The notes under the pieces: generated by a model
Database searches by the model: none
What the model was told of the DNA's origin: nothing
What the model saw: the letters and a program-made list of their open reading frames with translations, nothing else
Origin: a virus
DNA length: 33,458 nucleotides
Strand: one strand, 5' to 3'
IMG/VR virus record: IMGVR_UViG_3300030098_005829
Coordinates: 1 to 33,458 of that record
Shown here: positions 4,349 through 33,458 of the stretch, in pieces
Layout: each line of letters begins with the position of its first letter
How positions within the stretch are numbered: the stretch's first letter is position 1
Position numbers and translations under genes: made by a program

Positions 4349-4690
4349 TTAAATTTTACCATTATTTAAATTATTAAGTTTAATAAAATCAAAAGTTTTA
4401 ATATTATGAATAGATATAAATGGATATGATTCTAAAAATATCAATTCATTTTCAATTAAATTAATTGCTGTTTTTTCATCTGTTTTTTCATGTAAGATAA
4501 ATAAATTTTCTTTTTCTGTAATATCATTATAAAAAAATAAAGTTCTATTTTTTAAAAAAATAATATGTATTCCAAAATTACCACTTAAATAATAAAAATA
4601 TTTATTTTGTACATTATTTAATAAATTTACTTTTTTATTTAATAAATCAATAAATTTTTTATTATGTTTAAAATTGATTATATTTTTCAT
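4349..4690 (-). CDS. Hypothetical protein of the AT-rich cassette, 113 residues
   Basis: Begins MKNIINFKHNKKFIDLLNKK and is very rich in Asn, Lys, Ile and Phe, reflecting extreme AT content (about 13% G+C in 4381-4440 by count). It has alternating hydrophobic strands (YFYYLSGNFGIHIIFLKN) and may be a small alpha/beta protein. It is the last gene before the terminator at 4303. No family recognised. The composition differs from that of the structural genes and suggests separate ancestry. Confidence 0.65.
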   Translation of the reverse strand: MKNIINFKHNKKFIDLLNKKVNLLNNVQNKYFYYLSGNFGIHIIFLKNRTLFFYNDITEKENLFILHEKTDEKTAINLIENELIFLESYPFISIHNIKTFDFIKLNNLNNGKI

Positions 4691-6000: not shown

Positions 6001-6312
6001 AATTATCTCTTTTTTATTAGTTCTCTGTGACACCTAAAAAATAATACTTTATTATTTTAATATGCAAACTATTTTATGCATAATATTTAAATAAAAAAAA
6101 TTTATCGTTTTAATTTAGTTAAATAAGTAATTAATAATAATAATAATAAGTAATAATAAGTAGTAGTAGAAAAGAAGTAGAAGAAAAGGGTTTCATCCCC
6201 TCTTATAATGCCTGTAGAATCCCTCATATACCTTTTAACATGGATAAAATTAATCTTAGATATATTGACCCCATATTGTAATAAAGTAGCCTAATTCAAG
6301 CGATTCTTAATA
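6001..6312. promoter_or_regulatory. Divergent intergenic region with trinucleotide tract
   Basis: No supported gene lies here. Leftward the cassette genes begin at 6000, and rightward the small terminase begins at 6544, so promoters for both should lie in 6001-6543. The stretch has an ATA/AAT-rich part, a trinucleotide tract (AAT then AGT units, about 6129-6170), and a possible leftward hairpin at about 6186-6203 (AAGGG facing CCCCTCTT). No consensus promoter could be assigned with confidence. Confidence 0.4.
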
Positions 6313-6436
6313 TTTAAGGTGAAATCTAGGGTCCACTTAATAATATAAGGTAAATTATAGGGTTTGCCTAACTATTTAAGGTGGTCCAGGGGGTATACCT
6401 TAATTTTTTAGGTGGGGGGTAGGAGGATGCACTTTT
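6313..6436. repeat. Four direct repeats with exact 31-bp period; candidate packaging site
   Basis: Repeat units start at 6313, 6344, 6375 and 6406, exactly 31 bp apart. Each opens with T(T/A)T(A/T)AGGT; the first three continue with a GGGT at fixed offset and then CTTAA or CCTAA-like bases. The third unit contains the perfect inverted repeat TTAAGGT/ACCTTAA. The fourth is degenerate and very G-rich. A 31-bp spacing is about three helical turns, so bound proteins would line up on one face. The array lies about 110 bp ahead of the small terminase gene, as expected of a pac or cosB-type TerS binding site. Function is inferred. Confidence 0.7.
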
Positions 6437-6543
6437 TTGATTGGGGGGGGTCCCTTTTCCTCAAAAAATAGAGATTTTAACTATAAGAGCATATATGTAA
6501 TAGTAAATTTTGAAAAAACTATAAAATATCTATAAATTAAGAT

Positions 6544-7203
6544 ATGAATAAATTAATGAAATTACCTGAGAAGCAATTAGCAGTAGAGTTATTTGCATCA
6601 CAACCTAATATGACTGTTTCAGAGATTGCTATACAAGTTGGTGTTACACCTAAAACTATGAGTAACTGGAGGCAAGATCCAAAGTTTATTGATGCTATAT
6701 ATGAAAGGTATATGGAGTTGTTTGGTGCTGAGCTTCCTGCTGTTTTAAATGCTATGATAAGGGAAGGTAAGTCAGGCAATGTACAAGCTGCAAGACTTGT
6801 ATTAGAGCATAGTGGTAAATTGGTGAAGAATGTTAATGTTACTGTTCAGAGTCCTTTTGAGAAGTGGTTAAAGAAGGTAGATGATGTTGAGGTTGTTGAA
6901 GGTGAAATTGTAGAGAATGATTTAAGTAGTTTAATGGATAAGATTCCTGTTATTGAAAATATTGAGTTGCCTGAAAGAAAGGTTGAGAGTCAAGTTAAAA
7001 GAAAGAGAAATGAAATACAGAGCTTGAATAAGGCGAAGAAGAAGGCTGCTTACAATTTAAAACAGAAAGAATGGAATAGGTGGAAAAAGAGAGCTAAAGA
7101 TGTTGAACTGGCTCCACTTAAAGGTGGTAGACCAACTAAGGGTCAGAGGTTAGCCTGGGAACAAGAGATAATTAGGAGAGAGAATGAAAAGAAAGACTCG
7201 TAA
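6544..7203 (+). CDS. terS: Terminase small subunit
   Basis: 219 residues. The N-terminus (LPEKQLAVELFASQPNMTVS, then EIAIQVGVTPKTMSNWRQDP, residues 7-46) is a helix-turn-helix of the type found in phage small terminases, ending in the typical SNWRxDPKF. The middle (ELPAVLNAMIREGKSGNVQA) is the usual oligomerisation helix, and the C-terminus is Lys/Arg-rich with a KGGRPTKGQR segment. It recognises phage DNA and loads the large terminase. The ribosome site is weak. It lies directly downstream of the 31-bp repeats, and unusually is on the strand opposite to the large terminase. Confidence 0.8.
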   Translation: MNKLMKLPEKQLAVELFASQPNMTVSEIAIQVGVTPKTMSNWRQDPKFIDAIYERYMELFGAELPAVLNAMIREGKSGNVQAARLVLEHSGKLVKNVNVTVQSPFEKWLKKVDDVEVVEGEIVENDLSSLMDKIPVIENIELPERKVESQVKRKRNEIQSLNKAKKKAAYNLKQKEWNRWKKRAKDVELAPLKGGRPTKGQRLAWEQEIIRRENEKKDS

Positions 7204-7490: not shown

Positions 7491-7681
7491 GTAATACCTA
7501 TCCCATCCATCCAATTTTTTCCAAGCCTTTTTTCCATTTCATTGAATACTTCATCTGTAATTCTAAAATTTTGGATTGTTTCTTTAGGAATCTCTTCTAC
7601 TATATCTTCTAAAAGAATTTCAGTTAATTTTTCAATACTTTCCAGTATTTCATCTAATATTTTTTTTTCACTTTTTTTCAT
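7487..7681 (-). CDS. Hypothetical protein at the end of the portal operon, 64 residues
   Basis: Starts MKKSEKKILDEILESIEKLT, and is largely helical and acidic. The ATG at 7681 overlaps the stop of the preceding gene (ATGA). An in-frame GTG three codons upstream is also possible. It closes the leftward terminase-portal operon and meets the rightward 7338-7490 ORF tail to tail. Function is unknown. Confidence 0.55.
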   Translation of the reverse strand: MKKSEKKILDEILESIEKLTEILLEDIVEEIPKETIQNFRITDEVFNEMEKRLGKNWMDGIGIT

Positions 7682-8181
7682 ACTCTCCACACCTTATCTA
7701 TCTTCTTGATTAGTTTTTCTGCTCTTTTCTCTCGCCCTTTTGTGAAATCTTTTCTGAAGTTGCCCTTGGCTGTGAAAAATGGGTTTCTTGGTTTTACCTC
7801 TTTGCCAATTGCCTTTGGTGCATTTCTTTCTGCCCATTTACTCTTTCCTATTGTATGCCCATCTATATGATATTGAAGATAATCTTCTGCTTCAACACCA
7901 TCTTTAGTAGCTTTTATTGATTTTAACAACTTCCCTGTATGTAATAAAGGGGTGTTAGATGTACTTCCAACTCCTTTATTTTTTCTATAAGCATTTCTTT
8001 TTCTTAACTCTACAGTACCTTTAGTTAATTTTCTTAATCCAGTAGAGTTTTTTATAGTATTTCGTGCAGATTGAGCTAAATCTTCGTAAGATTGTTCAAA
8101 ATAACTATCAAAAACATCATCAAAGGCATCTAGTAGCTTACTAAATCTAAAATTTGATGTTGCTCTTGTTTTGATAGCCAA
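7678..8181 (-). CDS. Phage virion morphogenesis protein (tail completion, gpS/gpG-like)
   Basis: 167 residues. The pattern LLHTGKLLKSIKATKDGVEA, then YLQYHIDGHTIGKSKW and finally VKPRNPFF, matches the phage virion morphogenesis family (Mu gpG / P2 gpS type): a 'Leu-x-Thr-Gly-x-Leu-x-x-Ser-Ile' turn, a Tyr-x-x-x-His strand and a terminal Pro-Arg-x-Pro-Phe. Such proteins act in head completion or tail joining. The start is TTG at 8181 with GGAG six bases upstream. The gene follows the portal on the minus strand, while other head-tail joining genes lie far away on the plus strand. Confidence 0.65.
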   Translation of the reverse strand: MAIKTRATSNFRFSKLLDAFDDVFDSYFEQSYEDLAQSARNTIKNSTGLRKLTKGTVELRKRNAYRKNKGVGSTSNTPLLHTGKLLKSIKATKDGVEAEDYLQYHIDGHTIGKSKWAERNAPKAIGKEVKPRNPFFTAKGNFRKDFTKGREKRAEKLIKKIDKVWRV

Positions 8182-8184
8182 ATC

Positions 8185-9468
8185 TTACTCCATTTCTTGT
8201 GGTAGGAAGCCCTCGTTAATATTTTTATTGGATTCTATAATGTTCTGTGCTTCTTCGAGGCTCAAATCCTTGTTATATTCTACTAATAATTGTGCATTAG
8301 TTGCAAGTCCATGCTTTAAGCGATGCTCATCCATAAGAATTTGATCTTGAATTGTTTTTGGATATTCAGGTTCATTAAAGTCTAAAGATAAGTCTTCAGG
8401 TAATTTAATGTTATTATATGATGCAATTGCTCTTTCAATATCATATAGGTCATGCTCATACATGGTCCATAAGTCTAAATCATCCTGGTAGTCTTCAAAC
8501 CTTTCCAAGTCTTTGATCTTGAGTGCAATCCCTGATGGAGTTTCTCCACCATCTTGAGCAAATTGCACATATAGATGGTTATTCTGAGCAACCAAGTCCA
8601 GTTGGAATTTAACTGACTCAATTACTGCTTGAATATCCCCTTCAGGAGCAGCAATACCAAAAGTAGAGCCTTCAGGCAAGTCAAGTATTGTATCGCTCCC
8701 TGCTCGTTCTAATTTTTTATCTCCATACATACCTGTAATGAATGGTTGTCCAAACATTTGGAATCTTAAACCTAATTGAAGCTCTGTCATTGTAATATTT
8801 ACCTGCTCATTGCAGCTAACAATGTCATTTGCACCCTCTACAAAGAAAGAATCAACTTGCTCTTCCTTATGAGAGAATAAAAATGGAATTACTCCATATC
8901 CATGCTCATATTCACCCATTATATTCCCATCTTCATCATAATGAATATATCTTTGTGCATCCCAATAAGCATACTGTAATTTTTCTGCATTCCCAACATC
9001 ACTTACATTCATTAAGATTGGATATGTAATTGCTTCAGGAACAAATGGATTCTCTCCTAAATGTACATCAAAGTAGTAAACTGGCCTATAGTCAAAACAA
9101 GGGTACTTTAAATCATCTCTATAGATAACCTGGGTAGCAACTGAACCAATAAGTCGAGTCATTCTCTCCACATGCTTCATCCTTGCATCCTTTTTACGAA
9201 CCAATGATGTATAAGTATCACCATTATTACGAGAAGCCCCTACTGTGTAAATCCTTGACATCTTATTAACGAATCTTCGAGTAAAGTTTGCATTATACAA
9301 GGGAATTTCTCTAAATGCATCAGCAGAAAAATAATCATCTATATACTTTTCAGTTTCTGTACCTGTATAATAGTCAAGCAATCTACGAATTTCATTTCGC
9401 CTTTTCTTTGCTATTTGTAGTTTATAATCTTTTATTGAATCTTGTATGATGTCTGTTGGATTCATCAT
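8185..9468 (-). CDS. Portal protein
   Basis: 427 residues resembling SPP1 gp6-type portals: RRLLDYYTGTETEKYIDDYF near the N-terminus, IPLYNANFTRRFVNKMSRIY next, a central beta-rich region, NITMTELQLGLRFQMFGQPF, and the segment NHLYVQFAQDGGETPSGIAL, which is typical of the portal crown/stem region. Twelve copies form the DNA-entry ring at one capsid vertex. The start overlaps the large terminase stop by ATGA, the usual terminase-portal coupling. The C-terminus (HRLKHGLATNAQLLVEYNKD) also matches the family. Confidence 0.85.
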   Translation of the reverse strand: MMNPTDIIQDSIKDYKLQIAKKRRNEIRRLLDYYTGTETEKYIDDYFSADAFREIPLYNANFTRRFVNKMSRIYTVGASRNNGDTYTSLVRKKDARMKHVERMTRLIGSVATQVIYRDDLKYPCFDYRPVYYFDVHLGENPFVPEAITYPILMNVSDVGNAEKLQYAYWDAQRYIHYDEDGNIMGEYEHGYGVIPFLFSHKEEQVDSFFVEGANDIVSCNEQVNITMTELQLGLRFQMFGQPFITGMYGDKKLERAGSDTILDLPEGSTFGIAAPEGDIQAVIESVKFQLDLVAQNNHLYVQFAQDGGETPSGIALKIKDLERFEDYQDDLDLWTMYEHDLYDIERAIASYNNIKLPEDLSLDFNEPEYPKTIQDQILMDEHRLKHGLATNAQLLVEYNKDLSLEEAQNIIESNKNINEGFLPQEME

Positions 9469-10775
9469 CTTGAAATCACTCCTAACTCTCGTTGTCTAAT
9501 TGGAAATCTGTTAAGGAAGAAATATCTAACCATATCCATTCCATGATCATGTCTTCCATCTTTTATAGGTTCAGGTTTTAAATCTTTGCCCTCACCTGCT
9601 TCAGGGTATCTGTAATTCTCAAAATCTTCTGCTATACCTGTACATTTTTTATCTATATTGACAAACCTTTGCCCTGCAGCACTTTCTATATATCCTCTAA
9701 CATGACTAATCCCTGATGCTATACTCCTGGATACTTTATCTCTTATACTTCTTACTTGTATGCCATGTCTTCTAAAAATTTCAATATCTCCTAAACCTGA
9801 TTGACCCTGTGCCTGCATTCCTGCAGGATCACCATAATATTCTCTTACATAATATGGTTTAGATGTAATCATCTGTGCAAGTTCATCAGTTTTAATGTTT
9901 TGCTGATGTATTATCTCATCTATTATATTTATATGCCATTGCCCACCTACCATATGAGTCTGAAACCATGCTACAGCAGGCATTCTATAACCAAAGTCAA
10001 TAGAACAGAAAGTTGGAAAGTTTGGATTGTATGGAAAATCTCCCATATCCAGTTGTCTATCAAATGGATAGACCCTACCTTCAAATGATGTAAATTTAGC
10101 TTCATATTCCTGCTCATAAAGTTCCTTTGACATATTCCTTTTACGCTCAACTAAAAAATCATCTTTTTTACCTTCAGGGAATGCATATTGATTTTCCCAT
10201 GATGGAGCTTGGTGGGATTCCCATAAAGAATCTTTCTTGCCAAGCAAGAATATGTCATATATCCAATTATACCCTTCAGGAGTAGTTATAAATATTGCTT
10301 TCCCTTTCCTGTCTGAAAGTGTAGGAGATAAATACATATCCCAAATTTTCTTTTTAACTTTAGCTGCTTCATCAATAATGAGCAGATCAAGACCCTCACC
10401 AACAAGAGAATCAGGGTTATCAGCAGACTTAGCTTCTACTGTAGTTCCCCATTTAAATTTGATAAAACGATCCTTTTCTGAAGCTCTTTGTATGTCACTA
10501 GATCGACCTATTACCATCTTTTTCCATATTTCCCTGAACATTAAGTCTGCTTTGTCATAAGATAGGCCTACTAGCCATATCTTTTTATTAGGCTGAGATG
10601 CTATATAAGTAGCCTCCATAGCTGAAGCAGTTGTTTTACCAAATCGTCTACCACAAACCATTACAAAAAACCTAGCACTATCCTTTTCAGGGTAATGCAA
10701 TTTTAGTTGTGCTTTATGAGGGTTATACCCCATAAAATCAAACCATTCTTTTTTATAATTGTTTTGTAAATCCAT
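9465..10775 (-). CDS. terL: Terminase large subunit (ATPase and nuclease)
   Basis: 436 residues. Walker A is CGRRFGKT (41-48) and Walker B is LLIIDE (131-136) with the adjacent catalytic Glu. The RNase H-like nuclease acidic residues fall in FCSIDFGY (D260), YYGDPAG (D316) and GRHDHGMD (D410/D414). The protein powers DNA translocation and cuts the concatemer. It heads a leftward operon with the portal. It is transcribed from the region shared with the rightward scaffold gene, and is opposite in strand to the small terminase. Confidence 0.95.
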   Translation of the reverse strand: MDLQNNYKKEWFDFMGYNPHKAQLKLHYPEKDSARFFVMVCGRRFGKTTASAMEATYIASQPNKKIWLVGLSYDKADLMFREIWKKMVIGRSSDIQRASEKDRFIKFKWGTTVEAKSADNPDSLVGEGLDLLIIDEAAKVKKKIWDMYLSPTLSDRKGKAIFITTPEGYNWIYDIFLLGKKDSLWESHQAPSWENQYAFPEGKKDDFLVERKRNMSKELYEQEYEAKFTSFEGRVYPFDRQLDMGDFPYNPNFPTFCSIDFGYRMPAVAWFQTHMVGGQWHINIIDEIIHQQNIKTDELAQMITSKPYYVREYYGDPAGMQAQGQSGLGDIEIFRRHGIQVRSIRDKVSRSIASGISHVRGYIESAAGQRFVNIDKKCTGIAEDFENYRYPEAGEGKDLKPEPIKDGRHDHGMDMVRYFFLNRFPIRQRELGVISR

Positions 10776-31924: not shown

Positions 31925-32335
31925 TTATCTTGATGGGTGTAAGTCCTTACCACAACATCTACTAAGCATTTGATGGACACTAAATTTATCATAAAAATCA
32001 CTTGTCTTACAAGATGAACAATATCCTATCCTGGAACTACCTGATGTATCCATCCTAAAGTCATTTGCTGATAACTTTAATTCAATTTCTGTTTCAAACT
32101 CATCTTCCCAATGTTCCCCATTTATAAAAGTAGAAGCATGTTTTATAAAAGGCTTTTCAGTACCATATATATTAATTTGTTTAATGTAATTTTTAACACC
32201 TTCAATACACTCTTCTTGTGTTCTTTTAGGCAATCTATTAAAAGATGTTCTAGCTGCTTTTTTACCTACTTTTCTTGGATATATTTCCCATAATTTATCA
32301 AAATTATTCATAGCTATTAACTGCACCTGGGACAT
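31925..32335 (-). CDS. Replication initiation-like protein (helicase-loader C-terminal type) with zinc cluster
   Basis: 136 residues. FDKLWEIYPRKVGKKAARTS, followed by KPFIKHASTFINGEHWEDEF, is the C-terminal module of phage replication initiators and helicase loaders ('FxxFWxxYPxKxGKxxA' and 'PATWLNxxRWxDE' patterns). After it come CSSC and CC, a possible zinc cluster. The N-terminal DNA-binding part found in full initiators is missing, so it may be a trimmed or single-domain version. The ATG at 32335 has AAGG upstream and overlaps the previous gene's end. Confidence 0.7.
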   Translation of the reverse strand: MSQVQLIAMNNFDKLWEIYPRKVGKKAARTSFNRLPKRTQEECIEGVKNYIKQINIYGTEKPFIKHASTFINGEHWEDEFETEIELKLSANDFRMDTSGSSRIGYCSSCKTSDFYDKFSVHQMLSRCCGKDLHPSR

Positions 32336-32574: not shown

Positions 32575-32774
32575 AAACTGGCATTTCTCTTTTTTTGTAT
32601 CTTTTTATTATACTCGTTTAAACACTTTATACACCAAGTGTTATTTTCCTTACGATAGTCATCTAAAGGCTTATCCTCTTTACATTTATTGCAGATTAGT
32701 CCTTTTTTAGTAATTCTTTTTTTAAACTTTTCTGCCATTGTAATTAGTTTTCCACTTTTATTTTTATCTAACAT
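32568..32774 (-). CDS. Small zinc-ribbon protein, 68 residues
   Basis: Begins MLDKNKSGKLITMAEKFKKR, then ICNKCKEDKPLDDYRKENNT and WCIKCLNEYNKK: CxxC ... CxxC, a classical zinc ribbon with a CKxDKPLxDY pattern common in short phage proteins. AGGAAAAA before the ATG overlaps the methyltransferase stop region. Likely nucleic acid binding. Confidence 0.6.
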   Translation of the reverse strand: MLDKNKSGKLITMAEKFKKRITKKGLICNKCKEDKPLDDYRKENNTWCIKCLNEYNKKIQKKRNASLW

Positions 32775-33458
32775 TTTTTCCTGAATAATTATATAATTTT
32801 TTCATAATAGACTTAACTACAGGGACACTTACTGCATTCCCCATTTGTTTATATCTTTGCGTATCTGATTGACCTTCTGTCCATCCATCAGGGAATCCTT
32901 GTAATCTTTCACATTCAGTTGGAGTTAACCTTCTAATATTAGATCCAAGCTGTACACCATGTTGATCTTGAGATGTTAAAGTAAACATATCCTCACCATC
33001 TTCTTTAAATCTTCTACCATTTTGTTTTTTATTTTCTCTGTTAGGTGTAAGAACAGGCTTAACTTCATACAGACCTGTTTTAGCACCCATACCACCACCA
33101 TTCTTTATAGTCCTTGCACAGGTAGTGTCATAAACTCTTGTGGCTTCTGAATCTTTACCAATAACACCAATTTGATTTAGACCAGTATCAATTAAGTTTT
33201 CTGATCCATCTTTGTAATATCTTGCTGAGATGCAGTTTGCACTTTGTGGACCTTTGCTCCGAACCCATTCCCTTTTTTTTTGTGCTTTTCTTTGTGATTT
33301 ATTAAAGACTTTACCATTTTCTCTGATAGGAAATACTTTTGGTCTACATTCCCCTCTAATATGTCCAACAAAGTAAATTCGCTCTCTATTTTGGGGGAGA
33401 AACCACCTTGTATTAAGTAATTGCCATTGACCATCATACCCAATGTCGGCAATCGTTT
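32764..33458 (-). CDS. DNA cytosine-5 methyltransferase, C-terminal part (cut by window end)
   Basis: The minus frame is open to the window end and gives 230 residues. Near the upstream end DIGYDGQWQLLNTRWFLPQN followed by RERIYFVGH is motif VIII; RRLTPTECERLQGFPDGWT is motif IX, and YKQMGNAVSVPVV is motif X. The region between holds the target-recognition domain. The catalytic motifs IV and VI are not in the window. The same frame continues exactly into the fragment at 1-61 if the two ends are joined. Methylation of phage DNA is inferred. Confidence 0.9.
   Translation of the reverse strand, partial: TIADIGYDGQWQLLNTRWFLPQNRERIYFVGHIRGECRPKVFPIRENGKVFNKSQRKAQKKREWVRSKGPQSANCISARYYKDGSENLIDTGLNQIGVIGKDSEATRVYDTTCARTIKNGGGMGAKTGLYEVKPVLTPNRENKKQNGRRFKEDGEDMFTLTSQDQHGVQLGSNIRRLTPTECERLQGFPDGWTEGQSDTQRYKQMGNAVSVPVVKSIMKKLYNYSGKNVR

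Follow-up and report, generated by a model that had tools for sequence, protein, structure and literature searches.

Evenly spaced imperfect palindromes in a cos-like region upstream of a viral small terminase gene: candidate sites for a dimeric protein other than the terminase

What binds a regularly spaced repeat array that lies between divergent genes, directly upstream of a small terminase gene? The window analyzed here is the whole virus record of 33,458 bases, in which capsid genes are clearly recognisable. A C5 cytosine methylase gene on the minus strand is split by the record ends, with its first 20 residues at 2-61 and its C-terminal part at 32761-33456, which makes the map almost complete, with a probable circular permutation introduced by assembly; we infer a gap of a few hundred bases. 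The array occupies the gene-free stretch described in the earlier note. No open reading frame of at least 60 aa is found in 6034-6536; the next one listed, a minus-strand frame overlapping terS, has its left edge at 6537. The terminase genes and a promoter-like site are placed as follows.

6510-6538, plus strand: promoter-like TTGAAA-17-TAAATT before terS (9/12, consensus match only)
6544-7203, plus strand: small terminase (TerS) with an N-terminal HTH (phrog_2538, E 9.8e-12; phrog_7344; PF13022)
9465-10775, minus strand: large terminase (TerL; phrog_2, E 2.4e-51)

TerL and two neighboring open reading frames without a Pfam match (7678-8181 and 8185-9468) are on the strand opposite TerS and the structural genes. 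A minus-strand frame at 30466-31284 matches both a class II tRNA synthetase (PF00152) and a PHROG of unknown function.

Direct reading of the array bears out the spacing and the fixed GGGT that had been reported. The units are TTTAAGGT at 6313-6320 and 6375-6382, TATAAGGT at 6344-6351 and TTTTAGGT at 6406-6413, a step of exactly 31 bp, and GGGT recurs at offset +16 of the first three units (6329, 6360 and 6391). The period-31 self-match of 54/93 positions was reached by 0 of 1000 first-order Markov shuffles, each scored at its best over periods 20-44 (mean 36.3, maximum 47), and Tandem Repeats Finder called 6306-6383 with a period of 31, 2.5 copies and 73% matches. The regular spacing is a non-random feature of the array. 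The step is about three helical turns, which puts the sites approximately on one face of the helix. When repeats were counted generically (13-mers with at most two mismatches), the array was not outstanding, its 3 copies being matched by 3 of 20 shuffles, and an Rfam search returned a single match with E 0.74, far under the gathering score. Among the best 15 stretches listed in a window-wide periodicity scan, scores equal to or above that of the array occurred only at 4449-4590, a stretch that overlaps an open reading frame and is equally self-similar at 29 and 36 bp.

The units form the right halves of imperfect palindromes of the form ACCTTAA-N3-TTAAGGT (approximate), so that the full 19-bp sites extend leftward from the units; the left half is less well kept than the right.

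6303-6321, plus strand: array site 1, imperfect palindrome (motif scan, comparison with relatives)
6334-6352, plus strand: array site 2 (comparison with relatives)
6365-6383, plus strand: array site 3 (motif scan, comparison with relatives)
6396-6414, plus strand: array site 4, abutting the G tract, the best motif match in the window (13/14) and with a counterpart in L009

Matches of at least 12/14 number two in the whole window, both inside the array, against 0.23 expected, and the window-wide motif scan found no repetition above chance elsewhere. Palindromic sites in a divergent intergenic region would suit an operator array for the terS or late promoter, or for the divergent leftward genes, worked by a phage or host regulator; a Cro/C1-type HTH protein is encoded at 938-1288, and the promoter-like site at 6510-6538 could be the target. 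We regard such promoter control as unlikely, given that the array centers lie approximately 105-200 bp upstream of the promoter-like -35, that the motif stands at no other promoter of the window, and that whole arrays are replaced between near-identical phages, as described below.

Relatives were collected by TerS and TerL searches, which yielded at least 301 placeable loci, 133 of them unique; one TerS search contributed the best 80 of its 577 relatives. No close cultured relative was found in a phage collection searched with TerS, TerL and MCP: TerS gave three weak Bacillus phage matches and no more, TerL 1480 matches, all below 60% identity, and MCP 33 weak matches. A bacterial genome search gave one weak match, to a Chloroflexota MAG, and the TerS of one relative (L019) had no match among 50,697 phage records. 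A lack of spacing conservation, one of two outcomes that the earlier note had named as refuting its proposal, is not what the window's own group shows. L009 keeps three sites at steps of 31 and 30 bp, and L305 and L300 each have site pairs 31 bp apart, twice, plus a weak additional site. The sites are kept better than the DNA between them, with 39/57 identical positions in sites against 9/23 in spacers for the window and L009, and 61/76 against 24/48 for L305 and L300 (summed counts). The latter two also carry a Fur-like box, whose center is about 26-27 bp right of one site center and about 32 left of the next, near the 31-bp slot where the window has its own site. Scanned for exact occurrences of the array core, viral contigs yielded 10 stretches, three of which are this cos region (L300, L003 and L004), and a search for the window palindrome in the records of 14 relatives returned scattered terminator-like matches only.

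The surroundings of the array look like a lambda-type cos region directly upstream of terS. Reading rightward, relatives share a GGG-N6-CCC-like block with CTCTTATAAT, often an ATCTAC- or AACTAC-like site, a spacer, a G or C run with GGCGGAT or GGCGTAT (E2) and CATTCCCCATAAAAT (E3), followed by a repeat pair, a promoter-like site and terS, with a small open reading frame before terS in some. The corresponding features of the window are listed here.

6188-6199, plus strand: candidate cosN GGGTTTCATCCC, 12 nt, dyad-like (GGG...CCC), a conserved GGG-rich element before CTCTTATAAT at which relatives' sequences break
6200-6209, plus strand: conserved CTCTTATAAT block right of cosN, kept in relatives
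6210-6224, plus strand: weak candidate cosN-proximal TerS site (R3), a degenerate copy, GTAGAATCCC, in the window; ATCTAC/AACTAC or GAACTnT in relatives
6414-6432, plus strand: E2, conserved block of a G tract and TAGGAGGATGCAC; in relatives, a GGAT/GTAT core that follows a run of G or C, with invariant alignment columns
6453-6475, plus strand: E3, conserved block CCTTTTCCTCAAAAAATAGAGAT; match of at least 13 in 104/133 unique loci, with CCTCAAAAAAT invariant in four
6477-6488, plus strand: candidate TerS site R2, TTAACTATAAGA; member of a repeat pair 38 bp apart whose motif differs between TerS helix groups
6515-6526, plus strand: candidate TerS site R1, AAAACTATAAAA; the partner repeat, overlapping the promoter-like -35

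The CTCTTATAAT block with its downstream CTAC-like site scores 11-12 of 12 in 26 of 117 loci by a score that is partly circular, as it rewards CTAC, and is noise below 9; one of the 26, L173, is probably a chance match. In these 26 loci the spacer from the cosN block to E3 measures 81-362 nt. Several relatives have 81-101 nt between the two and no array, so the array cannot be essential to all.

Among the unique loci, 33 have an upstream sequence that breaks off within 850 nt. Four of these 33 ends lie at most 1 nt from the first base of the 12-nt element: two are contig ends (L305/L004 and L298/L163) and two are 10-N scaffold gaps (L336/L015 and L215, the latter positioned by reference to L223). 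The ends of L041 and L251 are 4 and 14 nt left of the block start, and two further scaffold gaps (L252 and L204) are located elsewhere. The binomial chance of such ends is 0.002 to 0.01 for three and would have been 4e-6 to 9e-5 had there been five. From the conserved block and these breaks we infer that DNA would be cut at 6188-6199; the breaks may also stem from differences between strains in the hypervariable spacer next to the block. The sequence of L015 beyond its scaffold gap does not reach the cosN block, and L429 stops 9 nt from the block while L276, from the same record, reads through it. A pattern scan for the block gave 80 stretches, mostly chance and with no clear extra end at cosN; a filter retained 9 that may have an E3, of which three or more are doubtful. 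Near-repeats occur at the ends of some long relatives, with no exact terminal repeat among them. To the left of cosN, where a cosQ would be sought, a TATCTAAAA-like motif was noticed by eye in relatives. A minus-strand terminator-like hairpin at 6184-6204 overlaps the candidate cosN; its T run is absent in relatives, as judged by eye, so the hairpin is not taken as the cause of the conservation of the block.

Left of the array, AT-rich (TAA)n-like DNA at 6122-6160 could act as an unwinding element if the repeated palindromes were replication-origin iterons, and a partial match to the C terminus of a replication initiation protein is found at 31925-32335. This explanation is very improbable: the initiator gene is far off, the cos block lies between the palindromes and the AT-rich stretch, and close relatives have the motif swapped for unrelated arrays.

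The G-rich tail of the array, which had been credited with adding strand asymmetry, is present as G runs at 6414-6419 and 6443-6450 but belongs to the separate block E2. Among relatives such as L014, L021, L028 and L106, the run preceding the GCGKAT core consists of G in some and of C in others; the tract is thus retained, its strand not. Downstream of E3, the best 12-mer pair has a spacing of 36-39 bp in 46 of 98 loci (mean of shuffles 7.35, maximum 13) and of 24-26 bp in 16 of 98 (mean of shuffles 8.45); in a non-redundant set (n = 42) the numbers are 21 and 5. The motif of the pair varies with the TerS recognition region: AATGTCAA occurs with the helix LKVHEQTV, AAGGTCAA with LKVAPTTV, CTACCAAA with GVSVKTVEGW or GVSPRTISYW, AACTATGA with GVSPKAMYNW and AACTTTnAA with GVTERTVHLW, a match that is a correlation along a phylogeny and leaves 37 loci of an untyped group without an assigned motif class. 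R2 and R1 are better candidates for TerS sites than the 31-bp array.

The same spacer holds different arrays in different relatives, namely Fur-box-like, DnaA-box-like, TTGCACG and TTAAAGTAnTACTTTAA types, the first two named for their likeness to the Fur and DnaA consensus sequences. The TerS N termini of L018, L035 and L088 are 0.98-1.00 identical pairwise over 100 aa and the DNA downstream is 0.93-1.00 identical, yet L088 has three Fur-like boxes and L018 and L035 have TTGCACG repeats. L127 carries four Fur-like boxes and L132 (the same as L334) three TGTGGATA-type copies, with matching flanks next to E3; the L132/L334 array is of the TGTGGATAA type and DnaA-box-like. The near-identical L164 and L348 differ in the spacer too. 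Unrelated arrays beside near-identical TerS helices make it improbable that TerS binds the array. The earlier note had proposed that the units are TerS-binding repeats of a cosB or pac site. Its cos-like neighborhood stands, with a position upstream of terS beside the cos-like block; the spacing is kept in three relatives, and these (L009, L305 and L300) are the nearest TerS relatives with upstream sequence and share the motif. The binding assignment itself now looks improbable in the face of L018/L035 against L088 and L127 against L334, of the array-free relatives, and of a repeat pair nearer terS that covaries with the TerS helix.

Identity in the spacer falls below that of the flanks in 65 of 67 pairs, which had been chosen for similar flanks. 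Divergence so far beyond that of the flanks is what neutral filler would give, with functionless repeats gained and lost in a hypervariable spacer, and a repeat test on 94 spacer regions was mostly without significant repeats and scored them no higher than the sequence farther upstream (means of 2.53 and 2.79, respectively). We nonetheless give this very little credence, because sites are kept better than the DNA between them, the spacing is constant and Fur-like sites are strongly enriched in spacers.

That enrichment was measured in 106 non-redundant loci, 9 of which have two or more Fur-like sites. Spacers (33.4 kb) contain 35 Fur-like sites against 2 in 181.7 kb of downstream sequence, with 2 for the reversed motif; apart from the textbook motifs, all patterns, the Fur-like one among them, had been derived from the same spacers, and their enrichment is therefore no independent result. 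With three mismatches allowed, the 7-1-7 Fur pattern of the textbooks gave 48 spacer and 19 background matches (reversed control, 22). In three records of 35-37 kb (G027, G028 and G029) all Fur-like matches are upstream of terS. The TTAAAGTAnTACTTTAA motif has 25 spacer and 7 background matches, a higher density per kb in spacers, and the window motif 12 and 10, again denser per kb as the spacer set is smaller. TTGCACG is weaker (14 matches against 13 for the reversed control), with two or more copies in four loci and in no background stretch. LexA, CRP and FNR motifs were not enriched in spacers, and an IHF consensus occurred twice or more in 1 of 106 spacers without pair enrichment. The window itself has no Fur-like site within one mismatch and only two-mismatch matches, 4 against 4 for the reversed control.

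Fur-like sites are mostly 24-25 bp apart (42 bp in G036), which is not a whole number of turns; this weakens an architectural reading and somewhat favors decoy and promoter-control readings. A decoy would let sites in many late genome copies soak up a host regulator and change host physiology, with the cos spacer merely tolerating them. The lack of helical phasing of Fur-like sites fits this, as do swappable arrays that share a position and look like the binding sites of various host proteins, the three TGTGGATA-type copies in L334/L132, and the failure to find a FUR-family gene of the phages' own in 17 records, several of them fragments. Sites are few, though, at 3-6 per genome, those of the window group are helically phased, a decoy need not stay beside cos, and the host effects are only supposed; titration is in our judgment an unlikely purpose.

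From sequence comparison, the likeliest ligand of the array is a dimeric regulator, which may belong to the host. Our tentative explanation, held at somewhat less than even confidence, is that the array consists of operator-like, two-fold-symmetric sites for a dimeric protein other than TerS that would organize a lambda-like cos spacer. The order is cosN at 6188-6199, the array, E2/E3, candidate TerS sites near 6477 and 6515, and terS. A protein on the spacer, probably of the host and with an architectural role, would organize its DNA by bending or compaction and so allow TerS, bound to the sites nearer terS, to act together with TerL at cosN. The array would thus take the place and part of IHF on lambda I1, with different phages recruiting different proteins. 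A broader version is possible but more doubtful: the array as an exchangeable cassette for abundant host regulators (Fur, DnaA or a binder of ACCTTAA/TTAAGGT) whose occupancy, and possibly the state of the host, would gate or shape packaging, or which the phage would titrate. No report of Fur or DnaA sites in a phage cos was found in the titles and abstract openings of the open-licence literature.

In lambda, the order is cosN, R3, I1/IHF, R2, R1 and then Nu1 (PMC4669245), and IHF at I1, between R3 and R2, bends cosB so that TerS can dock (PMC4669245, PMC4856287). The array lies in the interval that matches I1/IHF, which suggests an exchangeable, protein-bound spacer. The lambda left end, read from its sequence, begins GGGCGGCGACCT and has nu1 at 191. 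The likeness extends to a 12-nt candidate cosN beginning with GGG, a region of putative host-protein sites, TerS-site candidates and terS. The differences are a distance from cosN to terS of 356 bp in the window against 190 in lambda, a spacer that varies in length and carries exchangeable arrays of several palindromes where lambda has one IHF site, TerL on the opposite strand, and TerS sites predicted from sequence. Phage N15 has a working cos without the I1 region and R2/R1 (PMC4669245). Short-spacer relatives without an array resemble this simple cosB; N15 differs in having no array at all and a single critical TerS site. The relatives' arrays also resemble bacterial Fur-box promoter arrays in presumably fitting the 7-1-7 Fur pattern, and differ in their location, a phage cos region in place of an iron gene.

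At its cos, lambda relies on a single host bending protein. If the proposed explanation is true, a phage group that keeps the place and swaps the cassette would mean that packaging initiation can exchange its host factor, and Fur or other regulators of the host could be linked to packaging. In addition, the conserved TerS-site candidates stand next to a cos spacer that evolves fast, which may make packaging specificity readable from metagenomes.
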